Assembly: GCF_023736115.1 (NCBI RefSeq)
Contig: NZ_JAKQZC010000002.1
Location: 558,001 to 622,000 of the forward strand
Source: Salinicola avicenniae
GTDB lineage: Bacteria; Pseudomonadota; Gammaproteobacteria; Pseudomonadales; Halomonadaceae
Direction: 5' to 3'
DNA length: 64,000 nt
The position numbers and the translations under genes were made by a program. Below, one piece after another: positions 17,893-31,078 of this stretch; positions within the stretch are counted from its first letter, which is position 1; each line of letters starts with the position of its first letter. Below the pieces are notes generated by a model. That model was not told where the DNA came from, did no database searches, and was given only the letters and a program-made list of their open reading frames with translations.

Positions 17893-18015
17893 ATTGCCGA
17901 ATTGGACCCTCGTAAACTTTCTACCTAACGTTGCTCAGGACATTTCGGGAACGCCGTTCGTCACCGTCGGTAAAAGAAAAAAAGCCGACAAGCTCTATCA
18001 ATTCAATGATTTATA

Positions 18016-18043
18016 AAAATCCGGCCGCAGCCGGCCGGGTTTT
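18016..18043. terminator. Terminator-like stem-loop in the leader of the polysaccharide operon
   Basis: AAAATCCGGCC (18016-18026) pairs with GGCCGGGTTTT (18033-18043), with one G-T pair, around a 6-nt loop. The A and T tracts make it an intrinsic terminator in either direction. It lies 182 bp before the ugd start, downstream of the sigma-E-like promoter candidate, so it may act as an attenuator or mark that the true promoter is further downstream. Confidence 0.7.
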
Positions 18044-18225: not shown

Positions 18226-19632
18226 ATGCGGATTACCATCTTTGGAACGGGCTATGTGGGCCTGGTAACGGGTACCTGTCTGGCCGATGCCGGCCACGAA
18301 GTCATGTGCATGGATGTCGACAGCAGCAAGATCGAAGGACTGAAGAACGGCATTGTCCCGATCTACGAGCCCGGCCTCGAGACGCTGGTCAAACAGAATG
18401 TCGCCGAAGAGCGCCTGCTGTTCACCACCGATCCGGCCGAAGCCGTCAGCTTCGGCACACTGCAGTTCATTGCCGTCGGCACACCGCCGGATGAAGACGG
18501 CAGTGCCGATCTCAAGTACGTGCTGAGCGTCGCCGACACGATCGCCGAGCACATGCAGGAGTACAAGCTGGTAATCGACAAGTCGACGGTGCCCGTCGGC
18601 ACGGCGGATCGCGTCAACGACGCCATCGCACGTCGCCTCGCGGCCCGCGACGTGGATATCGCTTTCGATGTCTGCTCGAACCCGGAGTTCCTCAAGGAAG
18701 GTTCTGCCGTCGAGGACTTCTCCCAGGGCGCCCGCATCATCATAGGCTGCGACTCGCCGCGGGTAGAACCGCTCATGCGCGAGTGTTACGCCCCGTACAA
18801 CCGGCGCCAGGAAAAGCTGATGTTCATGGACATCCGCAGCGCCGAGCTGACCAAATACGCCGCCAATGCCATGCTGGCGACCAAGATCAGCTTCATGAAC
18901 GAGGTCTCCAATCTGGCCGAACGCCTCGGCGCCGACGTCGAGAACGTCCGTCGCGGTATCGGCAGCGATCCGCGCATCGGCTACAGCTTCATCTATCCGG
19001 GCTGCGGCTACGGTGGCTCCTGCTTCCCGAAGGACGTCCAGGCGCTGGCGCGGACGGCCAGCACCGTCGACTACGAAGCCGAGCTTCTCAACGCCGTCGA
19101 AGCGGTGAACTACCGCCAGAAGACCAGTCTGTTCACCAAGCTCTCCCAGGCGCTCGATGGCGACCTCAAGGGCAAGACCATCGCGGTCTGGGGCCTGGCG
19201 TTCAAGCCCAATACCGACGATATGCGCGAAGCGCCGAGCCGCGAGCTGATGGAGTCGGTCTGGGCGGCCGGTGGCAAGGTACGTGCCTATGATCCGGAGG
19301 CCATGAAGGAGTGCCGACGTATCTACGGCGACCGCGACGACCTGGTGCTGACCCAGCGCCGCGACGACACCCTTGAAGGTGCCGACGCCCTGGTCATCTG
19401 CACCGAGTGGAAAGCCTTCCGTACGGTCGACTTCCGCCGCCTGCGCGAGCAGCTGACGACACCGGCGATCGTTGACGGCCGCAACCTCTTCAATCCGGAA
19501 AGCGTCCGCGCCGCCGGGCTGCTCTACTTCGCCGTGGGTCGCGCCGATTCACTGCACTTGCCGCAGTCGAATGTCTCAGCGCCAGCCGCGTCGGTCGAGC
19601 GCAGCGCACCTAGCGTGGCCTACACCCTCTGA
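18226..19632 (+). CDS. ugd: UDP-glucose 6-dehydrogenase
   Basis: This 468-residue enzyme oxidises UDP-glucose to UDP-glucuronate with two NAD. Features are the Rossmann motif [14 protein letters not shown] (residues 7-20), [11 protein letters not shown] near 125, [32 protein letters not shown], and the active site [10 protein letters not shown] with the catalytic Cys at about 266. These signatures are those of UDP-glucose dehydrogenases. GDP-mannose dehydrogenase (AlgD) has different NPEFLRES and GGSCLPKDV segments. The start at 18226 has an AAGGAG site. A 20-residue Ser/Ala-rich tail extends past the usual end. It leads an operon with alginate-type synthase genes and probably supplies their sugar nucleotide. 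Confidence 0.95.
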
Positions 19633-19679
19633 TGCACGCCGGTGGCCCTGCCGCCGGCATCCCGAACGATAGAGACCAA

Positions 19680-19704
19680 GCTGGTGGCGCCCTGCGCCAC
19701 CAGC
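19680..19704 (+). repeat. Perfect 11-bp stem-loop between ugd and the polymerase gene
   Basis: GCTGGTGGCGC (19680-19690) pairs perfectly with GCGCCACCAGC (19694-19704) around a CCT loop. No T run follows. It may protect or process the mRNA between ugd and the downstream genes. Confidence 0.8.
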
Positions 19705-19710
19705 CGGGAT

Positions 19711-19738
19711 CGTGCGTTCCTCGCTCTCTGAACGCACG
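19711..19738 (+). repeat. Second stem-loop between ugd and the polymerase gene
   Basis: CGTGCGTTC (19711-19719) pairs perfectly with GAACGCACG (19730-19738) around a 10-nt loop, six bases after the first stem-loop. No T run follows. Two such structures in a 149-bp gap suggest that ugd and the synthase genes are expressed at different levels. Confidence 0.8.
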
Positions 19739-19781
19739 CGCGCAAGGAACGCCTCAGAGGACATACGCCAAGGACATCCCG

Positions 19782-21746
19782 ATGAGCGAGATCAACTATA
19801 CAAGCGCCCGACCCAGTCGCGCCTCGACCGCCACCGAAATCACGGTGATGCTGTTGATCATGGCACTGGTCGTGCTGCTGGTGTCCCACCTACCGGGCGA
19901 TGTATTCCATCCCGGTTCCAAGAGTTTCATTCTGGCCGTCGGTCTGATCGGCGTCTGGCGATACTCCTGGTGGGCCGTCCAGGCCGTGCGTTCGGTCTGG
20001 TACAACCGCCGGATGTTTCCGCGGTTGCGCGCCGCCGCCGATCTGGCCGGAGCCCAGGAGACGCCGGATGCGCTCTATATCCTATGCACCTCGTTTCGCA
20101 TCGAGACCGAGGTCACCTTTGCCGTCTACGATGCGCTGATTCGCGACGCCGCCCGCTACGGCGTGCCGACCACGATCTTCGCCGCGATCGCCGATCGCAG
20201 CGACGTCGATATTATCGACCAGGTGATGGATGAACACGGCTGGCCGGACAATATCAGCATCCGCTACATGTTCCAGAAAGGAGACGGCAAGCGCTCGGCG
20301 ATGGCCGAAGTGCTGCGAGCGATCTCCCGCTGCATGCCGACATCGCGGTCGCTGCTGGTGAGCATGGATGGCGATATCCGTATCGAGCCCGGCACGCTCG
20401 AGCGCTCGCTCTCCTTCTTCCTCGCCCAGGAGGATCTGGGTGCGATCACCACCAACAATAACGCGGTCGTGATCGGCGACGACGCCACCAAGGAGTGGTA
20501 TGACCTGCGTTACGCGCAACGTCATCTGGTCATGAGCTCGACGTCGGTCTCCCAGCGCCTGCTCGTGCTGACCGGACGTTACAGCGCCTTCCGCGCCGAC
20601 CTGGCCACTCGCGACGACTTTATCGAACTGGTCGAGAACGACCACGTCGAGCACTGGCGTTTTGGCAACTTCAAGTTTCTGTCCGGCGACGACAAGTCGA
20701 CCTGGTACTGGCTGCTCAAGAATCGCTGGAAGATGCTCTATCTGCCCGATGTCTATGTCACCGGGTTCGAAGAGCTGCCCGAGCGGAATCGCTTCTTCAA
20801 GTCGACCCAGGACCTGATGCGCCGCTGGTTCGGCAACATGCTGCGCACCAACGGCCGCGCCATCGAGCTGGGCCCGAAGCCGATGGGCTGGTTCACCTGG
20901 TGGAGCCTGGTCGATCAGCGCCTGTCGATGTGGACCACCCTGATCGGCCCGACCATCGCCATTCTGCTGACTCTGTTCGTGCGGCCCTCGTTCATCTTCG
21001 CCTATCTGCTGTGGATCCTGATGACGCGCGGCGTGACCAGCCTCGTCCTGGCCGCCCAGCGCGGCCGCTGGAGCCCCCTATGGGTGCCGATGCTTTACTA
21101 CAACCAGCTGAGCGGCGCGATTCTGAAGACCTACGTCAGTTTCCGCTTCAACCGCCAGAAATGGTCGCGCCAGGGCATCTCCGCCGGCGAGCCGGACGAT
21201 CCCCGCGCCGTTCGCCGCCAGCGCCTCGGTGGCCACCTGATCCACGCTCTCTACTTCGGCGCACTGGTGTTCGTGCTCGCCGTGGCCGGTGGCGTGATGG
21301 CACCGGCTGACCGCCTCTCGGTCGCCGCCATGACCGGCGAAGAGCCGGCCAGCGCCGAGAACGCGCCGCACGGCGACAGTTATTGGCTCGCCCTGACGCT
21401 GACCGATACACCGCTGAATGGCGAGGTGCAGTTGCCGAGCGGCCGCTTCCATCTGGACGACAGCTTTCCCGAGCGCGTGGCCACGCTGGACCGCATTCGT
21501 GCCGACGGCTGGCGAGGCTTCGGCGACGCCGAGCAGCCAACGCGGCTGAGCGTGGACCCCGGCATGGCCGAGCGGATCAGCGCGGCCGGCGACACGCTGG
21601 CCAGCGCCGGACACCTGGCGTGCCAGTCGGACTCGCCCTGTGAGCTGCAGGTCGCCGACCACAAGATTCACCTGACCGAGCTTGAGCTATCGCTCGCGCA
21701 GGCCCCCCGCAAGGACGACGAGACGCTGGCCCAGAACGGCCGGTAA
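19782..21746 (+). CDS. Alg8-like polyuronate synthase (GT2 family) with C-terminal extension
   Basis: The 654-residue inner-membrane glycosyltransferase matches alginate polymerase Alg8 along its first 470 residues. Shared features are GSKSFILAVGLIGVWRYS (47-62 region), TSFRIETE, MDGD (195-198, the DxD site), LTGRYSAFRA, HWRFGNFKFLSGDDKSTW (292-308 region), QDLMRRW (343-349, the QxxRW equivalent) and YYNQLSGAILKTYVSFR. Membrane helices lie near 19-38, 47-66, 382-425 and 487-505. Alg8 of P. aeruginosa ends near residue 494. This protein adds about 150 residues after the last helix, with a Cys pair (CQSDSPC) near its end. Substrate is inferred as UDP-GlcA from the adjacent ugd. The start at 19782 has an AAGGA site. 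Confidence 0.88.
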   Translation: MSEINYTSARPSRASTATEITVMLLIMALVVLLVSHLPGDVFHPGSKSFILAVGLIGVWRYSWWAVQAVRSVWYNRRMFPRLRAAADLAGAQETPDALYILCTSFRIETEVTFAVYDALIRDAARYGVPTTIFAAIADRSDVDIIDQVMDEHGWPDNISIRYMFQKGDGKRSAMAEVLRAISRCMPTSRSLLVSMDGDIRIEPGTLERSLSFFLAQEDLGAITTNNNAVVIGDDATKEWYDLRYAQRHLVMSSTSVSQRLLVLTGRYSAFRADLATRDDFIELVENDHVEHWRFGNFKFLSGDDKSTWYWLLKNRWKMLYLPDVYVTGFEELPERNRFFKSTQDLMRRWFGNMLRTNGRAIELGPKPMGWFTWWSLVDQRLSMWTTLIGPTIAILLTLFVRPSFIFAYLLWILMTRGVTSLVLAAQRGRWSPLWVPMLYYNQLSGAILKTYVSFRFNRQKWSRQGISAGEPDDPRAVRRQRLGGHLIHALYFGALVFVLAVAGGVMAPADRLSVAAMTGEEPASAENAPHGDSYWLALTLTDTPLNGEVQLPSGRFHLDDSFPERVATLDRIRADGWRGFGDAEQPTRLSVDPGMAERISAAGDTLASAGHLACQSDSPCELQVADHKIHLTELELSLAQAPRKDDETLAQNGR

Positions 21747-21773
21747 GTCAGGGATATCCAAGGAGAACTTATC

Positions 21774-23225
21774 ATGTCGGATCAATTCAACGACGCCAGC
21801 AAGGATTCGGATCAACTGCGTCACGAGCGTCGCGACGAGCGCCGCCACGTCCGCGTCGAGATGCCCTTCAACGTCCGCCTGGGCGACGACCGGGTGGTCA
21901 AGGGGTACGACCTGTCGATGGGCGGCTTCTCCGCCTTCACCTCGCTGCATTTCGAACAGGACCGCGAGATTACCGTCGCACTGATGCTGACTGCCAGTGG
22001 TGTCGAGCTAAGCCTCTCCGCCAAGGCTCGCCCGCTGCGGGAACTCGGCGAAGCGAACCATCAGCGCATGGCGTTCGAATTCACCGAGCTCGATCCCAAC
22101 CAGCGCGAGATCCTGCGTCGCGTCATTCGCGCACAGATGAGCGGGCGTCACGTCAGCCTCGAGGGCTTGGTCGATCAGGAAGATCCGCAAACCCCGCGCA
22201 AACGCCAGGCCAACGTGGCAACCCCCGCGCGCCAACCCAAGCGCCGCGTGCCGGTATTCCGCTACACCGCGCTCCTGGTGGCCGCTGGCGTGCTGACCGC
22301 CGTGGTCGCCGCCACGATCTACCGCAATGTGTTCTTGATCGAGCCCAGCTTCGCCGCGGTGACGGCGCCGCGTACCGATATCCTGGCACCGGGCGCCGGG
22401 CAGCTGGAAAACCTGCAGCTCAACGCGGGCGATCAGGTCGAACGCGACCAGCCGCTGATCCAGGTCAATAACGCCGAGCTGCAGAACGATCTGCTGCTCG
22501 CGCAGGCCTCCTTCGACTACAACAACCGTCTGGTCGACAACCTGCAGGAAAGCCTCGATGAGGCCCGCGGCGGTGATGTCAGCGTCGCCACCTCCTCCAA
22601 CCCGGGCCAAGGCGACATGGGCTACGAAACGCTACCGCCCGAAATCGCGCAGACCCGCGTCGAGCAGTTCGAGACCGCTCGCGACTACGAGAGCTCGCGC
22701 ATCGATGCTTATCAGTCGCGGGTCTCTGCCAACACCATCTACAGCCCGTGCAACTGTGAAGTGGCCTGGGCGCTCAGCGCCGCCGGCGGTACCTACGTCA
22801 ACGAAGGCGACCGCGTCATGACGCTGGTCAGCACGCACGACAACGACGTGATGGTCGAGGCGCTGGTGCACATGGACGATATCGGCGACATCGAGAGCCA
22901 CCAGCAAGCCTACATTGCGCTGCCGAACGCCTCAGAACCGATCCCGGCGCGCGTCCGCAGCGTCGCCCTCGACGTCGAACGCCAGCCGCGTGCCGGCTTC
23001 CCGGACTGGGTGCGCCAGCAGCAGAACGTGGCCAGCGTCCTGCTGGTCCCGGAAGAGCCGCTGCCCGCCGGTGCCGTCGGCACGCCGGTCGACGTCCGCT
23101 TCACCGAAGCCCCGATGCTCGACACCGCCGCCGAATGGACCTATCAGGCCGGCCGCGCCGTGTTCCAGGGCGTTCAGTCGCTGTGGGGCGAAGCCACCGA
23201 GCGCCTGCAGAGTGCGATGAACTGA
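21774..23225 (+). CDS. Alg44-like c-di-GMP receptor and membrane-fusion protein
   Basis: The 483-residue protein has an N-terminal PilZ domain (about 15-125), one transmembrane helix (about 163-183) and a periplasmic HlyD/membrane-fusion region (190-483), the layout of alginate co-polymerase Alg44 (389 residues in P. aeruginosa). The c-di-GMP residues are intact: RRHVR (R23 and R27 of the RxxxR motif) and DLSMGG (D46, S48, G51). Periplasmic motifs are APGAGQLENLQLNAGDQVERDQPL (in parts) and SPCNCEVAWAL. It lies 27 bp after the Alg8-like gene with an AAGGAG site. The polymerase should therefore be switched on by c-di-GMP, by analogy with alginate synthesis. Confidence 0.9.
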   Translation: MSDQFNDASKDSDQLRHERRDERRHVRVEMPFNVRLGDDRVVKGYDLSMGGFSAFTSLHFEQDREITVALMLTASGVELSLSAKARPLRELGEANHQRMAFEFTELDPNQREILRRVIRAQMSGRHVSLEGLVDQEDPQTPRKRQANVATPARQPKRRVPVFRYTALLVAAGVLTAVVAATIYRNVFLIEPSFAAVTAPRTDILAPGAGQLENLQLNAGDQVERDQPLIQVNNAELQNDLLLAQASFDYNNRLVDNLQESLDEARGGDVSVATSSNPGQGDMGYETLPPEIAQTRVEQFETARDYESSRIDAYQSRVSANTIYSPCNCEVAWALSAAGGTYVNEGDRVMTLVSTHDNDVMVEALVHMDDIGDIESHQQAYIALPNASEPIPARVRSVALDVERQPRAGFPDWVRQQQNVASVLLVPEEPLPAGAVGTPVDVRFTEAPMLDTAAEWTYQAGRAVFQGVQSLWGEATERLQSAMN

Positions 23226-23311
23226 TCGGCAGTGCCGGGGCCGCTATTCGGCCCCGGCCTGGCCATTCCCGGCCCGATCCATCGACAAACGGCATTCGCA
23301 AGGAGACAAGC

Positions 23312-24235
23312 ATGACTGGATTCTCGCCGCACAACACGCTCGGCGCGACGCCGTCGCGCCACGCCGGCCGCCCCCGGCTCAAGGCCGGTGTCATCGCAAT
23401 GGCGCTGGCAGGGCTCGGTACGCTCTCGCCGTCCGTCCAAGCGTCGGACGATGACGCGCTGATGACACCGCAGCAGTCGGCCTGCTCGACCCGCTATACG
23501 CCGGTCTCGACGTTGCCGCTCGGTGCCGCCGCAGGCGACCTGGCCGCCTGGGCCAAGGACACGCTCGGCGCCCAGCGACGCTGGGGCGAGCAGAACCTGA
23601 GCATCCTCGGCACCGGCAACAGCGGCCTGGAAGGCCCTGCACTGCGTGTTCGCTACCCCGAAGGCAGCTCCTCGCCGAGCGACGCTGCCGAAGGTGGCGC
23701 CGGCTTCGTCGTGCCGACGCCGGCACTGCGTCAGACGGATCGTGCCTGCCTGCGCTATCGGGTGCGCTTCGAGTCCGGCTTTGACTTCGTCAAGGGCGGC
23801 AAGCTGCCGGGGCTCTACGGCGGTGACGGCCCGACCGGCGGCGACGAGGTCACCGGCGAGAACGGTTTCTCGATGCGCTTCATGTGGCGCAAAGAAGGAC
23901 AGGGCGAACTCTACGAGTATGTCGCCAACAAGGATGCCGACTACGGCGAATCGGTCGGTCGCGGCGCCTGGCACTTCACGCCCGGCCAATGGGTGACGAT
24001 AGAGCAGGAAATCGTACTGAACGATCCCGAAAGCGATGACGGCATCGCCCGGGTCTGGATCGATGGCCAGCCCATCCTCGAACAGCACGGCATCGTCTAT
24101 CGCACCACGGACCAGGTGCATATCGACGGCCTGATGTTCTCGACCTTCTTCGGCGGCCACGGCAGCGACTGGCGCACACCGCGCGATCAAACCGTCGATT
24201 TCGCCGACTTCATGCTGATGACGCCGCAGGCGTGA
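23312..24235 (+). CDS. Secreted polysaccharide lyase, PL14-like jelly-roll
   Basis: The 307-residue precursor has a signal peptide (cleavage near VQAS, residues 42-45) and a concanavalin-like jelly-roll domain. The stretch KGGKLPGLYGG (161-171), followed by GFSMRFMWRKEG and WVTIEQEIVLN, matches family PL14 polysaccharide lyases, which include viral and molluscan enzymes acting on alginate or glucuronan. It should work in the periplasm on polymer in transit or on mislocalised chains. The start at 23312 has an AAGGAG site; the frame remains open upstream without a supported start. Family assignment is by motif recognition and the substrate is inferred. Confidence 0.78.
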   Translation: MTGFSPHNTLGATPSRHAGRPRLKAGVIAMALAGLGTLSPSVQASDDDALMTPQQSACSTRYTPVSTLPLGAAAGDLAAWAKDTLGAQRRWGEQNLSILGTGNSGLEGPALRVRYPEGSSSPSDAAEGGAGFVVPTPALRQTDRACLRYRVRFESGFDFVKGGKLPGLYGGDGPTGGDEVTGENGFSMRFMWRKEGQGELYEYVANKDADYGESVGRGAWHFTPGQWVTIEQEIVLNDPESDDGIARVWIDGQPILEQHGIVYRTTDQVHIDGLMFSTFFGGHGSDWRTPRDQTVDFADFMLMTPQA

Positions 24236-24263
24236 TCGCCCACTCGACAGGGAGTCGACCTTC

Positions 24264-25502
24264 ATGAACCGGATGTCATTTTCGAACCCAAGACGTCTCG
24301 TCGCCCTATTGGCGGCAATGGCGCTGCTCGGGCTTTCCTTTTCTGCCAGTGCCATGACCTACGAGGCACGCCAGGAGCTGGATCTTTCGCGCTACACCGT
24401 GACCGATCCCGACGCGTCCTATTTCGACGTCGACGCACGCATGGCACTGCTGGCCCAGACCGACAACGACCTGCTGCAGTACAACCGGGATCAGTTGCAA
24501 CACGGTTTCAGCTGTCAGCAGGCGCTGCAGACCCCCGCCCTGGATAGCGTCATCCGTATCCCGGGCTACTATCCGCAGCCCCAAGCCTGGGAGCTCGCCT
24601 CCGAACCGCTGTTCGATTTCGAGGACACGATGTCGAACCTGGCTGGCGCCTACGTCGCCAGTGGCGATGACTACTACGCCGACTGCGTGGTCCGCTTTCT
24701 GGACAAGTGGGCGACCCAGGACGCGCTGAGCGACTTCTACTACTCCCGCCGCGACCCGCAAGCATGGTACTCGACCGAGTCAATGATGTTTGCGGCGGCC
24801 ATGGCCTACTCGATCGTCCGCCCCGCCATTGCCGACGAGCGCCCCGAGGCGATCACCCGCATCAATCACTGGCTCAACCAGCTCGCGCACCGGCACTCAT
24901 CGATCCGCGGCGGCGAAAACAGTTGCTGCAACAACCACTTCTACCGGCGTGCGCTCTACGCCAGCATGATCGGCGTGCTCACCGACGACGACGAGCTGTT
25001 CCAGTTCGGTGTCAGTGCTATCTACTCGGCGCTGAGCGACATGCTGCCCAATGGCGCCCTGCCCCGCGAAATGGCTCGCGGCCGCCGCGCCAGCCACTAC
25101 CAGAACTACGCCCTGCTCTACCTCGTCAACATCATGCAGGTCGCCTACCGACAGGGCTACGACCTGTTCGAGCTGGAGTACAACGGCCACACCATCAATG
25201 AGGGTGTGCAGTTCGCGCTGGATACCTTCGACGATCCGGCCGCGCTCGGTGATCTGGCCACGCATAACCAGTATCGCGGTTTCCTCGACGACGAGCAGTA
25301 CCTGGCGTGGATGGAGATCTACCTAGATCACCGCGACGACGCGCGCATTTCACGCTACGTGAGCCAGAAACGGCCGATCGACAACCGTAGCGCCGGCGGT
25401 TACGCCACGCTCTATTTCATGGATCCCGACGCGCAGGAACGCGCGCTGCCGGAGCCGAAACCCAGCGAAGATGGCGTGCCGCGCGAGCTCGCGGAGTATT
25501 AA
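24264..25502 (+). CDS. AlgL-like polyuronate lyase, PL5 family (first copy)
   Basis: The 412-residue precursor has a signal peptide ending at FSASA (residue 30). The alpha/alpha barrel keeps the AlgL catalytic pattern: NNHFY with NNH at 223-225, and RASHYQNYA with Arg275 and Tyr279. FGVSAIYSALSDMLPNGALPREM (in parts) matches the region before the active site. Two adjacent Cys (221-222) precede NNH. PL5 enzymes cut alginate, and the Stenotrophomonas member also cuts polyglucuronate. AlgL clears polymer stuck in the periplasm, and a similar job is likely here. It lies 28 bp after the PL14-like gene. Confidence 0.87.
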   Translation: MNRMSFSNPRRLVALLAAMALLGLSFSASAMTYEARQELDLSRYTVTDPDASYFDVDARMALLAQTDNDLLQYNRDQLQHGFSCQQALQTPALDSVIRIPGYYPQPQAWELASEPLFDFEDTMSNLAGAYVASGDDYYADCVVRFLDKWATQDALSDFYYSRRDPQAWYSTESMMFAAAMAYSIVRPAIADERPEAITRINHWLNQLAHRHSSIRGGENSCCNNHFYRRALYASMIGVLTDDDELFQFGVSAIYSALSDMLPNGALPREMARGRRASHYQNYALLYLVNIMQVAYRQGYDLFELEYNGHTINEGVQFALDTFDDPAALGDLATHNQYRGFLDDEQYLAWMEIYLDHRDDARISRYVSQKRPIDNRSAGGYATLYFMDPDAQERALPEPKPSEDGVPRELAEY

Positions 25503-25563
25503 GAAGGAGGGCTTCACCAAGCCGTACAGCGTCAGGCAGCTAGAAGAACGCAGGGAGAAACGC

Positions 25564-26961
25564 ATGTCAGGGAACGAAAAAACCAAACTACGATCGCGGC
25601 CGCGTCGCCCGGGTTTCGGCGGCGCACTGCGCAATCCGATTCGCAGGACGCTAGGCGCCCTTAGCACGGGGCCGGTCGCGCCACGGCGCGCCACGCGCCC
25701 GATACCGCCGCGAACCAAGGTCGGCCGCCTACGCACAATCGCGTCGCGCAAAAGCCTCTCACGCGACGGCATGGCGCCTCTGCTAAGCGCCATGTTGCTC
25801 GGGCTGGCGATGCCGGCGCACGCCATGACCTACGAACAGCGTCAGCAGTTGGACCTGTCATCGTATGTTGTTACCGCGCCCGACGCCTCCTACTTCGATG
25901 TGGAGGCCCGCATGGCGCTGCTCGACAAGACGGACAACGATATTCTGCTGAACCGTAGCGCCCAGCTGGCCCGCGGTCCCAGCTGCCGCCAGATGCTGGC
26001 CAAGCCGCCGCTGGACGGCGTCATTCGCATCCCGGGGTACTACCCGTCCCCGGAAGCCTGGGAATTGGCCTCGGTGCCGCTGTTCGAGTTCGAGGACGCC
26101 GTGACCAACCTGGCCGGTGCCTATGTGGCCAGCGGCGATGGCTATTACGCCGACTGCCTCGTCCGATTCCTGGATAAATGGGCGCGCCAGGATGCCATCG
26201 CCAGCTTCTACTACTCGCGTCACGATCCGCAGGCCTGGTATTCGACGGAGTCGCTGATCTTTGCCGCCGCCTTCGCCTACTCCATCGCGCGGCCGGCGGT
26301 TGACGATCGACCCCAGGCGATCGAGCGCATTGACCGCTGGCTCAACCGCCTGGCGTGGACCCACTCGTCGATCCGCGGCGGCAAGGGCGATTGCTGCAAC
26401 AACCACTTCTACCGTCGTGCGCTCTACGCCTCGATGATCGGTGTGCTGACAAAAGATGACGAGCTTTTCCAGTTCGGCGTCAGTGCCGTCTACTCGGCGC
26501 TGAGCGACATGACCCCAGAAGGCGCCTTTCCGCTGGAGATGGCTAGAGGCCGACGAGCAAGCCACTACCAGAACTATGCCCTGATCTATCTCGTCAACAT
26601 CATGCAGGTGGCCTATCGCCAGGGCTACGACCTGTTCGCGCTCGAGCGCCACGGTCACACCATCGACGACGCCGTGCAGTTCGTCCTCGATACTTTCGAG
26701 GATCCGGCGGCATTGGGCGACCTCGCCACACATGCCCAGTACCGCGGTTTCCTTGATGACGCCCAATACCTGGCATGGATGGAGATCTATCTACGCCACC
26801 GCGACGATCTGCGGCTGTCCGAGTACGTGCGTCCGCGGCGGCCACTCGACAATCGCAGTGCGGGTGGCTACGCCACCTTCTATTTCATGGACCCGGGCGC
26901 GCAACGCCGAGCCATTCCCGACGCCGAGCCGGACCGGCTCGCCGGTATCGAACGGCACTGA
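25564..26961 (+). CDS. AlgL-like polyuronate lyase, PL5 family (second copy, with Arg/Pro-rich N-terminal extension)
   Basis: The 465-residue protein is a tandem duplicate of the preceding lyase. From MTYE onwards the two align with almost no gaps and roughly three quarters of residues look identical, including NNHFYRRALYASMIGVLT and RASHYQNYAL. It differs at the N terminus, where about 69 residues rich in Arg and Pro come before a normal hydrophobic signal segment (MAPLLSAMLLGLAMPAHA). The ATG at 25564 has a GGGAGAAACGC site. The ATG at 25771 would give a normal-length signal peptide but has no ribosome site. Both copies keep the catalytic residues, so this is not a decayed gene. Confidence 0.86.
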   Translation: MSGNEKTKLRSRPRRPGFGGALRNPIRRTLGALSTGPVAPRRATRPIPPRTKVGRLRTIASRKSLSRDGMAPLLSAMLLGLAMPAHAMTYEQRQQLDLSSYVVTAPDASYFDVEARMALLDKTDNDILLNRSAQLARGPSCRQMLAKPPLDGVIRIPGYYPSPEAWELASVPLFEFEDAVTNLAGAYVASGDGYYADCLVRFLDKWARQDAIASFYYSRHDPQAWYSTESLIFAAAFAYSIARPAVDDRPQAIERIDRWLNRLAWTHSSIRGGKGDCCNNHFYRRALYASMIGVLTKDDELFQFGVSAVYSALSDMTPEGAFPLEMARGRRASHYQNYALIYLVNIMQVAYRQGYDLFALERHGHTIDDAVQFVLDTFEDPAALGDLATHAQYRGFLDDAQYLAWMEIYLRHRDDLRLSEYVRPRRPLDNRSAGGYATFYFMDPGAQRRAIPDAEPDRLAGIERH

Positions 26962-27035
26962 AGGCGGATACGCAGGATCCCTGATACCGGCCCGCCCCAA
27001 GGAAGACGCGGGCCATACCGACAGGAGAGATACCC

Positions 27036-29837
27036 ATGACGACCCAGACATTCTCGACACCCGAAACGCTGTCGAAGACCAAGCGTCACCCAACAACCCA
27101 AACACGGTCGACGGCCAAGACGTTCGCGTCAATCGCGCCACGCTTCCTGCTGGGATTGGCGTCCGCCGCGATCCTGAGTGCCTGTGCCACATCAGGTAGC
27201 CAACTGCAGCAACCGATCGATCCCGAAGATCGCGAGCTGTTTGCGCATCACTATGTCGAGTCGATGCCCTCGAGCGACTGGAACCGGATGGATTATATCC
27301 GTGAACTGGAAGCCTCCGGCCAGGCACTGAAAGCCATCGAGCTGCTCAAACCGATGGCCCAGACGCATCCCGAGGCAAACTACGAGCTAGGCAGCATCTA
27401 CGACGAAGCCAAGGGCGTACCGCGCGATCCGCAACTCGCCGCTCACTACTACCGCCTGGCCGTTCCCTACGAATTCAGCGGGCTCGACAACGCCTCGCTC
27501 AAGCTGGGTCGTCTCTATCGTGCCGGCGACGGCGTCGAACGCGACCCCGCCTTGGCCTGGAACCTGTTCCAGCAGGCCGTCGACCACGACGGCAACCCCA
27601 GCGCGCGTATCGAGCTGGCCGAAATGCAGCTCGCCGCTGACGGTGTTTCGCGAGACGTGGAGGCGGCGCGCGACCAGCTCGAGCAGGCCGCCTCCGCCAA
27701 TGAACCACGCGCGCTGCGCGCCCTGGCCGACAATTACGCGCCGGGTGGCGCGTTCGAGACCGATACGACGCGAGCCCACGACTACGCCGAACGCTACGCC
27801 CGGGTTATGACCACTCGTGCCGAGAACGGCGATGTTGGTGCCATGCTGGCACTGGCACGACTGTATGCAGACGATGGCCTGCTGCCGCAGCCGGCACGTC
27901 AGGAGCAATGGCTGTCGCGCGCCGCCGACAGCGGCGAACCCGACGCCCAGGCCGCCGCCGGTCACCTACTGATCGAGAAATCCGACCCGTCACGTGGGCT
28001 GGCGCTGCTCGAAACGGCAGCGGAAGCCGGCAATGCCGACGCCGCCTACTGGCTCGGCCAGGCCTACCTCGGCCAGGGCCAGGTCGCGCCGGACGCGACG
28101 CTTGCCAAGCGCTGGCTCTCGCGCGCTACGGAACGCGGACAGGTGGATGCCTCGCGCACGCTCGGCAACGCCTATGTCGAGGGCGACGTCCTGGAACAGG
28201 ACTCCGCCCGTGGCGTCCAGCTGCTGGAGCAGGCTGCCGAGCACAACGACGCCTACGCCATGGCCCTGCTAGGTAACCTCTATCTGGACGGCGAGCAGGT
28301 GCCACCGCAGCCGCAGCGCGGTATCGACTATCTCGAGCGCGCGAATCGTCTCGGGCACCCTTACGCTACGGTCCGTCTCGGCGAAAGCTATCTCAAGGGC
28401 GAGGGTGTCGCCGCCGATCCGGTACACGGTGTAGCGTTGCTGACCGATGCTGCCAACCAGCAACAGAGCGGCGCGGCCCGCACACTCGGCACGGCTTACC
28501 TGGACGGCACCGTCCTGCAGCAGGATCCAACCAAGGCGAAACAGTGGCTGACCCGCGCCATCGAGCAGGATCCGAGCGATACCACATCGAAGACACGGCT
28601 CGGTCAGGGCTATCTTGAGGGCACGATTCCCGGTGGCAGCGGCCAAGGTATCAGCCTGCTTGAGGAAGCCGCCGATCAGGGCGACGACTACGCCATGGTC
28701 GTGCTCGGCCGCGCCTATCGTGAAGGTGTCGGTGTCGCCCCCGATCTAGCCCGCTCCGAACGTTGGCTGCAACGCGCCGCGCAGGCAGGCCATCCTTCCG
28801 CCCGTCAGGCGCTCGCACGCACCTACCGGGCCAGCGGTGAACAGGGCAACATCGATGACCTGATCCGCGCCGCGCGCATGGGCGAGGTACCCGCGATGAC
28901 CGATCTCGGTCGTGCCTATCTGTACGGCCGCGGCGTGCGTGCCAACTACGCCAGCGCCAGACAGTGGCTGACTCGGGCAGCCGATGCCGGCCACCCCTCC
29001 GCCATGGCATCGCTCGGCCGCATGTATGCCGATGGCCTGGGCGTGAATGCCAACCCCTCACGCGCGGCAGACTATCTCGAGCGCGCCGCCAATGCCGGTC
29101 ATATCGGCGCTCAGGCCGATTTTGGCGAGATGCTGCTGAACGGCCGCGGTGTGCCGGCCGACCCGCAGCGCGGCGTACGTCTGCTAACCCAGGCAGCTAA
29201 CGCGGGCCATGGCTCCGCCGGGGTCACGCTTGGCGAGGCCTACCTCTACGGTCATGGTGTCAGCGCCAATCCCGACCGCGGTATTCGCTATCTGACACGC
29301 GCGGCCGAAAGCGGCGATGACAACGCCCAGCGCGTACTCGGCAAGGCCTATCTCGAAGGCAACGGCGTCGACCGCGATACCGATCAGGGTCTGACATGGC
29401 TGACACGTGCGGCCGATCGCGGCAATGTTTCCGCCAAGGCAGCACTCGGCTCCGCCTACCTGCAGGGCGACAGTGGCGTGAGCCAGGATGTCGAGCGAGG
29501 GAAACGGCTGCTGACCGAAGCCGCCGAGACCGGTCACGCCGGCGCCGAAGCCGCACTGGGCCGTGCCTACCTCAGTGGTGAAGTGCTGCCGCGGGACCCT
29601 CACAAAGGCGCCGAGCTGCTGGTCGAGGCGGCACGCCAGGGACACCAGTCCGCTCGCCTCTCCATGGCGCAGGCGTATCTGCAGGCGCGTGGCATCGAGT
29701 ATGTCAATCAGCAGCAGGCCATGGTCTGGCTCGACGGCGTGATGGAAGGTAACAGCGAGACCGCCATCGACACCCTGCAGGACCTGCTCGAAGACCCGGC
29801 AGTCGCCGAAGCGGCCAGCGAAGGAGCGTCTTCTTGA
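27036..29837 (+). CDS. AlgK-like Sel1/TPR-repeat outer-membrane lipoprotein, double length
   Basis: The 933-residue protein has a lipobox ILSAC with the lipidated Cys at residue 50, after an unusually long n-region of about 35 residues. The rest is about 20 or more Sel1-type repeats of the form LG-x-AYL-x-G-x-GV-x2-D-x4-G-x2-L-x2-AA-x3-G. AlgK, the lipoprotein that assembles the alginate secreton, is built the same way but has about 475 residues. The position in the operon with Alg8/Alg44-like genes supports an AlgK-like scaffold role between synthase and outer membrane. A generic Sel1 protein cannot be excluded from sequence alone. The start has an AGGAGAG site. Confidence 0.8.
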   Translation: MTTQTFSTPETLSKTKRHPTTQTRSTAKTFASIAPRFLLGLASAAILSACATSGSQLQQPIDPEDRELFAHHYVESMPSSDWNRMDYIRELEASGQALKAIELLKPMAQTHPEANYELGSIYDEAKGVPRDPQLAAHYYRLAVPYEFSGLDNASLKLGRLYRAGDGVERDPALAWNLFQQAVDHDGNPSARIELAEMQLAADGVSRDVEAARDQLEQAASANEPRALRALADNYAPGGAFETDTTRAHDYAERYARVMTTRAENGDVGAMLALARLYADDGLLPQPARQEQWLSRAADSGEPDAQAAAGHLLIEKSDPSRGLALLETAAEAGNADAAYWLGQAYLGQGQVAPDATLAKRWLSRATERGQVDASRTLGNAYVEGDVLEQDSARGVQLLEQAAEHNDAYAMALLGNLYLDGEQVPPQPQRGIDYLERANRLGHPYATVRLGESYLKGEGVAADPVHGVALLTDAANQQQSGAARTLGTAYLDGTVLQQDPTKAKQWLTRAIEQDPSDTTSKTRLGQGYLEGTIPGGSGQGISLLEEAADQGDDYAMVVLGRAYREGVGVAPDLARSERWLQRAAQAGHPSARQALARTYRASGEQGNIDDLIRAARMGEVPAMTDLGRAYLYGRGVRANYASARQWLTRAADAGHPSAMASLGRMYADGLGVNANPSRAADYLERAANAGHIGAQADFGEMLLNGRGVPADPQRGVRLLTQAANAGHGSAGVTLGEAYLYGHGVSANPDRGIRYLTRAAESGDDNAQRVLGKAYLEGNGVDRDTDQGLTWLTRAADRGNVSAKAALGSAYLQGDSGVSQDVERGKRLLTEAAETGHAGAEAALGRAYLSGEVLPRDPHKGAELLVEAARQGHQSARLSMAQAYLQARGIEYVNQQQAMVWLDGVMEGNSETAIDTLQDLLEDPAVAEAASEGASS

Positions 29838-31078
29838 TGCTCGGAGACCGCAGCGGGCGCGCCGCCGCCAGACGCCGGGCAGCACGATCCCGCGTCTGGT
29901 TGTTGCTGACCCTGGGACTCTTCGCCCAATTCCCGGCCCTGGCGGCCGGGGACACGGCAAACGGCGGCGACCTGGCGATGGCAAAAAGCGCCATAGTCAA
30001 CGCGGCCGAGCTGGGCGCCAGCGCGCGTCTGTTGCTCGAGGCGCGTGACGCGTTGGCGACGCCGCTTGATAGCGTGGTCGACAAGACTCGGCTGGCCGCC
30101 AGCGGCGACCCGCACGACTACTTCAGCTTCGCCCCCTACTGGTGGCCGGATCCCGATCGCCCGGATGGCCTGCCCTACGAGCGCCGCGATGGTGAATACA
30201 ATCCGGCGACTCGCGGCGACGCCACGGACAAGCAACGGCTGATCGACTTCATCGATACCGTCGATGCGCTAGCGTGGGGCTACCGGCTCAGCGGGGACCC
30301 ACACTACGCCGACCGCGCCGTGGCACAACTCGAGCACTGGTTTCTCGACCCCGAGACCCGCATGAACCCCAACCTGCGCTACGCCCAGGCGATCCCCGGG
30401 CGGGTCGACGGGCGCGGCATTGGCATTATCGAAAGTCGTCTGCTGATCGATCTGGCGGCGGCGATCGAGCGGCTGACGCCCGCTGACGCGATGACGCCGA
30501 CGACGCTAGCCGGACTACATAGCTGGTATGCGGATTACCTGGACTGGCTGCAACGCAGCGACAATGGCCGCGACGAGGCTGACGAGTCCAACAATCACGG
30601 CACCTGGTACGACGCTCAGGTCGTCGCCTTCGCGCGCTTTCTGGACCGCCCGAAACTGGCGCAGGAACAGTTGCAGCGCGCCAGCCAGAGGCTGGACGCG
30701 CAGTTCGGGCCAGACGGTCGCCAGCCGCTCGAGCTGGAACGCACCCGCCCCTGGCACTACGTCAACTTCAACCTCGAGGCCTGGTCGATACTGCTCGATG
30801 AAGCGGCGGCCATGGATCTCGACTGGCCCGAGGGCAACGCCCGCGAGCGATTGGCCGCCGCCTATCGCTGGGTCGCCGAACACGCAGCGGCGCCCGAAAA
30901 CTGGCCCTACGATGAGCTGCACGCTTTTGCGCCGGAGATCGCGCTGGCCAACCTGGCCGCCGCCCGACGCCATGACTTGCTGGGGGAACGACAGGCCCTG
31001 GCGAACCACCTGATCGCAAACTGGCTGGCCGCGGAAGCCCGCCCCGCCGAAACGGTGATGGCGCTGGGCAACGGGTGA
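29837..31078 (+). CDS. Periplasmic lyase of the alginate_lyase fold, PL38-like
   Basis: The 413-residue precursor has a signal peptide (cleavage near ALAAG, residue 38) and an alpha/alpha barrel. Signature stretches are DPHDYFSFAPYWWPDPDRP (91-109), RRDGEYNP, MNPNLRYAQAIPG, GRGIGIIES (192-200) and SNNHGTWYD (251-259, with the catalytic-type NNH). This set is seen in alginate_lyase-domain proteins of family PL38, which includes an endo-glucuronan lyase. Its ATG overlaps the stop of the preceding gene (TGATG) and an AAGGAG site lies inside that gene, so translation is coupled. It is the last gene of the operon. Confidence 0.8.
   Translation: MLGDRSGRAAARRRAARSRVWLLLTLGLFAQFPALAAGDTANGGDLAMAKSAIVNAAELGASARLLLEARDALATPLDSVVDKTRLAASGDPHDYFSFAPYWWPDPDRPDGLPYERRDGEYNPATRGDATDKQRLIDFIDTVDALAWGYRLSGDPHYADRAVAQLEHWFLDPETRMNPNLRYAQAIPGRVDGRGIGIIESRLLIDLAAAIERLTPADAMTPTTLAGLHSWYADYLDWLQRSDNGRDEADESNNHGTWYDAQVVAFARFLDRPKLAQEQLQRASQRLDAQFGPDGRQPLELERTRPWHYVNFNLEAWSILLDEAAAMDLDWPEGNARERLAAAYRWVAEHAAAPENWPYDELHAFAPEIALANLAAARRHDLLGERQALANHLIANWLAAEARPAETVMALGNG

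Follow-up and report, generated by a model that had tools for sequence, protein, structure and literature searches.

The described system closest to the locus reported here is that of alginate, whose genes (algD-8-44-K-E-G-X-L-I-J-F-A, represented in this work by the control locus L047) encode a GT2 glycosyltransferase of the Alg8 family, the PilZ/HlyD protein Alg44, a Sel1-type lipoprotein and a periplasmic lyase of polysaccharide lyase family 5 (PL5). These components are shared by a gene block at 18226..31078 of a 64,000-nucleotide stretch of the Salinicola avicenniae genome (contig NZ_JAKQZC010000002.1, positions 558,001 to 622,000), referred to here as the window. The two systems differ in that alginate synthesis uses a GDP-mannose dehydrogenase, whereas the cluster in the window contains a UDP-glucose dehydrogenase, and in that clusters of the window type carry a PL14 lyase as a constant member. 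Additionally, the Sel1 protein of the window has 933 residues, against 458 in L047, and alginate synthases, with arginine and glutamate (R/E) at two positions described below, lie on a branch of their own, while synthases of the window type, with phenylalanine and asparagine (F/N), lie on another.

A second point of reference is provided by the class I hyaluronan synthases (those of Chlorella virus and Xenopus HAS1), which have the same membrane GT2 fold as the Alg8-like synthase of the window (Alg8L), represent its nearest solved structures and use UDP-glucuronate (UDP-GlcA), the donor proposed here for Alg8L. They differ from it in sequence (about 14% identity) and in their product, a chain of alternating glucuronate (GlcA) and N-acetylglucosamine, and they are not known to have a PilZ partner or lyases. 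The polymer proposed for the window, beta-1,4-polyglucuronate or glucuronan, would be the same as that of Peteryoungia rosettiformans and of Sinorhizobium meliloti M5N1CS, the latter of which reportedly makes a glucuronan lyase. The genes for glucuronan synthesis are stated to be unknown in a 2023 paper on a producer (PMC10180729), and neither a glucuronan gene set nor a description of this cluster as a glucuronan pathway was found in the open-licence literature, subscription papers and preprints lying outside the scope of the search. We file the locus as a variant of the synthase-dependent, PilZ-linked polysaccharide systems.

Our reading, to which we assign a probability of about 0.7, is that the locus encodes an Alg8-family synthase that uses UDP-GlcA to make glucuronan, accompanied by periplasmic lyases for clean-up. 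In the proposed pathway, Ugd would oxidise UDP-glucose to UDP-GlcA, which the Alg8-like GT2 synthase would polymerise, passing the chain through the inner membrane; the product would most likely be beta-1,4-linked glucuronan. The Alg44-like PilZ protein is the presumed partner of the synthase and may open it upon binding cyclic di-GMP (c-di-GMP), the Sel1 lipoprotein may scaffold the periplasmic passage of the chain, and the lyases with signal peptides (PL14 and PL5, joined in the window by a second PL5 and a PL38) would clear or trim stray periplasmic polymer, a role modelled on AlgL, which clears stray alginate from the periplasm (PMC8829089). Product, linkage, c-di-GMP control, export route and lyase role are the elements of this scheme that we infer. 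A glucuronan-like polymer made by an Alg8-family synthase had already been suggested in an initial annotation of the window, and sequence tests, namely the type of Ugd, the failure to find algD in seven genomes and the separate branch of the synthase, support that suggestion.

The first gene of the block, ugd (18226..19632, plus strand; Pfam UDPG_MGDP_dh), is predicted to encode a UDP-glucose 6-dehydrogenase that supplies UDP-GlcA. Compared with solved structures, its product scores 545 bits against the UDP-glucose dehydrogenase 2y0e and 206 bits against the GDP-mannose 6-dehydrogenase 1mfz; it is 34% identical to AlgD of L047, and its 494 bits against the TuaD equivalog model fall under the 700-bit cut-off. 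With the L047 dehydrogenase as the query, no algD ortholog was found in any of seven Halomonadaceae genomes (best identity about 40%), while the same query finds 79-100% identity in its own genome, G191. The algG model (NF038177) likewise matched none of the seven and was positive in G191, where the AlgK and AlgG of the control locus exceed their model cut-offs. These results bear out the earlier claim that the precursor enzyme is of the UDP-GlcA type, the wrong one for alginate. Two further ugd-like genes in the 4.0-Mb genome of the window (G000) are 72% and 80% identical to the copy in the cluster.

A supply of UDP-sugar is tied to the Alg8L side of the synthase family through different genes, because varied dehydrogenases and galU recur beside synthases of this side. 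The Ugd of the window shares 42% identity with the cluster dehydrogenase of Caenispirillum and 40% with that of Thalassobaculum, and these two are 51% identical to each other. The Thalassobaculum enzyme has the UDP-glucose dehydrogenase 4a7p as its nearest solved relative, with 423 bits compared with 171 for 1mfz, and that of Caenispirillum was compared by Pfam and pairwise alignment alone. In L169 and L140, both on the Alg8L side of the tree, a galU scoring above the TIGR01099 cut-off adjoins the synthase run, upstream on the same strand in the former and downstream on the other strand in the latter (Rhodobacter aestuarii), and no dehydrogenase of the UDP-glucose or GDP-mannose type was seen in these two stretches. 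A ugd near the synthase of L048 (genome G038) was rejected as a further case, two to three unrelated genes standing in between. As a separate observation, right-handed beta-helix proteins adjoin both galU-linked synthases (L169 12149-14512, in genome G674; L140 8607-9860). The one in L169 has 14 RTX repeats, a layout like that of secreted C5-epimerases; if the polymer is glucuronan, these proteins could be GlcA epimerases.

The synthase Alg8L (19782..21746, plus strand, its start placed from a Shine-Dalgarno-like site) was recognised as an Alg8-like GT2 polymerase from trees, the F/N signature and an AlphaFold2 model. It is 34-41% identical to the Alg8 proteins of algD-linked clusters and 79-83% identical to its closest relatives, all Salinicola, in a scan of named genomes with Alg8L from which the best 80 of 119 loci were fetched. 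In a tree of 42 of 61 rows, cut to 700 residues and rooted at the midpoint only, 17 ugd-linked and 2 galU-linked rows formed one side with a support of 100/99. Alg8L did not branch inside the algD-linked polymerases, the placement that the initial annotation had named as refuting its reading; L137 and L138 were labelled algD-linked in this tree although their stretches show no dehydrogenase. An earlier quick tree had been built with L056, a fragment, left out and L052 cut to 600 residues.

Two alignment columns, defined from 23 ugd-linked and 21 algD-linked rows, separate these groups. R155 and E217 (L047 numbering) are present in 35 of 35 algD-linked synthases (21/21 defining and 14/14 held-out), and F/N stands at the same two positions in all 23 ugd-linked rows, in 60/60 further fetched loci, of which L082 and L129 end before ugd, and in both galU-linked synthases. 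In Alg8L itself, F and N fall at 164 and 226 (653-residue numbering plus one). The resulting 85 F/N rows represent 79 distinct loci, six pairs being the same genome taken twice, four of them across the sets of 23 and 60. In a plasmid collection, Alg8L had relatives in 14 records, and the seven that were fetched (three Rhizobium, four Rhodobacterales) are all algD-linked. With regard to length, Alg8L is extended at its C-terminus by about 140 residues (window 21321-21746), the synthase open reading frames (ORFs) in L034 and L035 stop close to residue 520, and algD-linked Alg8 proteins of Gammaproteobacteria have about 490-520 residues. In addition to the standard alginate locus, genomes G377 and G191 each have another alg8 cluster that includes an algD (L045 and L046); a double set of this kind is described for Ectopseudomonas guguanensis in a 2026 paper (PMC13296017).

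The genome search for a conserved neighbourhood that the initial annotation had recommended recovered a core of six genes, namely ugd, alg8-like, alg44-like, PL14, PL5 and Sel1; 73 of the 80 fetched loci carry all of them on the same strand. Among the other seven, contig ends truncate L082, L088 and L129, and L137, L138, L140 and L142 are members of other groups. The gene order of the window recurs in 71/73 full-core loci (67/73 by best matches alone, a repeated downstream PL14 or PL5 scoring higher in L089, L091, L099 and L109, where the first copies stand in window order), and ugd is placed after alg44 in Caenispirillum (L076) and Thalassobaculum (L133). A single PL5 precedes Sel1 in most of the fetched loci, and PL38 lies directly 3' of Sel1 in five, all Salinicola, and elsewhere in the stretch in four more. 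The eight genes named at the outset are all present on the plus strand with the domains assigned to them and look like an operon in the window, but the conserved unit is one of six genes, to which PL38 and the second PL5 are optional additions.

Within the family of the window, Alg8L synthases were found in 7 of 18 genomes, and in 17 of 61 Halomonadaceae genomes in a wider set. PL14 (PF21294) occurs in the identical 17 genomes, every time with a copy no more than 3 kb from the synthase, which provides strong evidence that it belongs to the system; G295 holds extra PL14 copies. Because the six genes are one-stranded in 73 loci and PL14 and the synthase share the same genomes, their association appears to exceed chance. 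In individual loci, PL14-PL5 is repeated downstream (L035, L089, L091, L099, L109 and L139, of which L035 and L139 are the same genome), and L035 has a second Sel1 gene. The Caenispirillum cluster (L076, 10001-20537) encodes a synthase 66% identical to Alg8L that sits among those of Halomonadaceae on the quick tree; this placement, together with a dehydrogenase that differs and follows alg44, makes acquisition by horizontal transfer likely.

The alg44-like gene (21774..23225, plus strand) encodes a putative co-polymerase with Pfam PilZ and HlyD_3 domains, the latter a periplasmic domain of the HlyD type. Of the 73 full-core loci, 72 have the complete PilZ motif RxxxR...(D/N)xSxxG, and L139 departs from it. 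The c-di-GMP switch named in the initial annotation is a prediction from this motif, and two residues of Alg8 differ as set out below.

The lyases comprise PL14 (23312..24235; PF21294, 222 bits), PL5a (24264..25502), PL5b (25564..26961), which is an optional duplicate, and an accessory PL38-like enzyme (29834, with TTG, or 29837, with ATG, to 31078; PF05426, 259 bits), all on the plus strand. Both PL5 proteins match PF05426, signal peptides were recognised by eye in these and in PL14, and the starts of PL14 and PL5b were placed from Shine-Dalgarno-like sites; the PL38 label is a naming by the initial reader and ourselves, given without a CAZy tool. The closest solved chains are 5gmt for PL14 and 3nfv and 8bdq for the PL38-like lyase. 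An NNH...R...Y pattern is found in the PL5 of 70/73 full-core loci, and the MARGxRAxHY stretch of the PL5 proteins was discarded as evidence, since AlgL has it too. Against the NCBIfam alginate-lyase models, the PL5 proteins all fall below cut-off, the best, a 'polysaccharide lyase' model, giving 118 of 366 bits. Enzymes active on glucuronan within two of these families count for a glucuronan product. The PL5 enzyme Smlt1473 of Stenotrophomonas maltophilia is reported as highly active and specific for poly-GlcA (PMC4765187). Of the PL38 enzymes described, two cleave alginate, two cleave glucuronan and one degrades both hyaluronan and chondroitin sulfate (PMC13027841).

A number of observations weigh against this reading, several of them by pointing to alginate. 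Among solved structures, the PL5 proteins of the window are closest to the alginate lyase A1-III (1hv6; 158-177 bits), ahead of Smlt1473 (99-105 bits), which is a PL5 like them, and of the alginate lyases 4ozv and 7sa8 (57-59 bits); PL5a gives 158, 99 and 57 bits, respectively, and PL5b the same ranking. As each of PL5, PL14 and PL38 has alginate lyases among its members, these families are not decisive; taken by themselves they were rejected as evidence because they span alginate and other substrates. A 2015 review lists an alginate lyase and an 'Alginate biosynthesis protein Alg8' among the genes predicted for Halomonas smyrnensis AAD6 (PMC4683990), the strain to which synthase locus L132 of the fetched set belongs. 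Single genes of the cluster have therefore been noted in print before, as alginate genes; this 'Alg8' is an annotation, with no polymer test seen.

An unusual alginate (polymannuronate) locus, with GDP-mannuronate made elsewhere and ugd serving another purpose, would accommodate these points and the homology of the synthase, the PilZ protein and PL5 to alginate parts, yet we regard it as very unlikely. Neither algD nor algG was found in the seven genomes, the synthase lies outside the algD-linked group, and a UDP-glucose-type dehydrogenase or galU stands beside the synthase even where a ugd of the window type is missing. Furthermore, searches of 20-kb stretches from six relatives (E 1e-6) gave nothing for AlgE, AlgG, AlgX or AlgI, and the eight genes of the block belong to families other than AlgX and AlgI. 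The correspondence to alginate parts noted in the initial annotation is consequently incomplete, these four proteins having given no match in the stretches searched. Alginate proper was rejected, since no algD or algG was found in the seven genomes and the synthase branch is a different one.

Other reservations concern the synthase. Taken alone, the ugd-linked rows are not supported as a monophyletic group (39/7 in the 42-row tree), and the F/N signature marks about one change on the tree, so that it is no more than correlated with the donor. No Sinorhizobium record in the plasmid collection matched Alg8L at E 1e-10, and because of this the known glucuronan producer Sinorhizobium may use something else. 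In a review, H323, T457 and E460 of Alg8 are said to contribute to activation by c-di-GMP (PMC8461298); the first two align with E and I in Alg8L, the match of numbering being our own, and for this reason the switch may work differently from that of alginate Alg8. The lyases would also suit a heteropolymer containing GlcA, since both Smlt1473, which reportedly acts on hyaluronan and alginate depending on pH (PMC11784403), and RiPL38 cleave hyaluronan too.

Such a heteropolymer, for example a hyaluronan-like chain in which a single GT2 domain, as in hyaluronan synthases, alternates UDP-GlcA with a second UDP-sugar, is unlikely in our view. The AlphaFold2 model of Alg8L (mean pLDDT, the predicted local distance difference test score, 83) has a hyaluronan synthase as its nearest solved fold, but the likeness extends to cellulose and chitin synthases and the comparison contained no true Alg8 model, so the fold gives no indication of which donor is used. 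None of the genes in the cluster codes for an enzyme that would supply a second sugar nucleotide, and the lyase families of the cluster are known first for alginate and glucuronan.

The remaining reservations about the glucuronan pathway concern export. The Sel1-repeat lipoprotein (27036..29837, plus strand; Sel1, 340 bits; lipobox LSAC read in the sequence) scores 156 bits against the AlgK model, under the cut-off of 700, and is accordingly best described as AlgK-like. Six of the seven genomes, G000 among them, have no member of the AlgE family (PF13372); in G130 the family is present on another contig. Across 77 stretches, with crude gene calling, the conserved neighbourhood revealed no additional porin gene, and neither did the six flanking ORFs of L133 and L076. 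The recurrent plus-strand upstream neighbours, in up to 26 loci, are RimK-like, BtuR-like and a BCCT transporter (one of each looked at), and six loci share a downstream ORF family on the plus strand that matches nothing in Pfam. The search for porins at the genome level covered PF13372 and the BcsC barrel only, and a BcsC-type barrel, which probably serves cellulose, was found in G000 and G347.

These negatives, together with the two or more signal-peptide lyases of each cluster (four in the window), would suit a polymer that stays in the periplasm, as a polyanion in halophiles, or is shed as oligosaccharides made by the lyases, rather than a biofilm exopolysaccharide. We consider this improbable, given that the Sel1 lipoprotein is similar to AlgK, a protein of outer-membrane export, and that an unlinked porin of another family, such as the BcsC-type barrel, could act. 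The word exopolysaccharide in the initial annotation is nevertheless uncertain as long as no known porin accompanies the system.

Regarding the origin of the glucuronan system, we give somewhat less than even odds to a scenario in which an alginate polymerase switched donor once from GDP-mannuronate to UDP-GlcA (R155F and E217N, L047 numbering), became the six-gene glucuronan core now found in 17/61 Halomonadaceae genomes, was passed to Alphaproteobacteria, rewired its c-di-GMP switch and adopted an exit other than AlgE. The locus offers a defined candidate gene set for glucuronan in named halophiles, and the F/N and R/E pairs offer residues that distinguish two synthases with presumably different sugar-nucleotide donors. 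The Alg8 family would thereby be widened beyond alginate, and therefore 'alg8' annotations in halophiles, such as that of H. smyrnensis, should not be read as alginate untested. The missing porin represents a concrete gap in the pathway.

In terms of layout, with gene starts refined by Shine-Dalgarno-like sequences, the intergenic gaps along the block are 149, 27, 86, 28, 61 and 74 bases, and Sel1 and PL38 overlap by 1-4 bases. A single operon of all eight genes is plausible because no gap exceeds 149 bases and the last gene pair overlaps. Minus-strand genes flank the block on both sides, a suf-type regulator (17521-16925) and purA, and the 64,000 nucleotides of the window gave no tRNA or Rfam match. 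A GC hairpin at 18021-18038 was rejected as a leader element, being absent from the six other aligned Salinicola. Upstream of ugd, a block at 17895..17980 (plus strand) is conserved in the alignment of seven Salinicola upstream regions, including that of the window, and may represent a promoter or operator.

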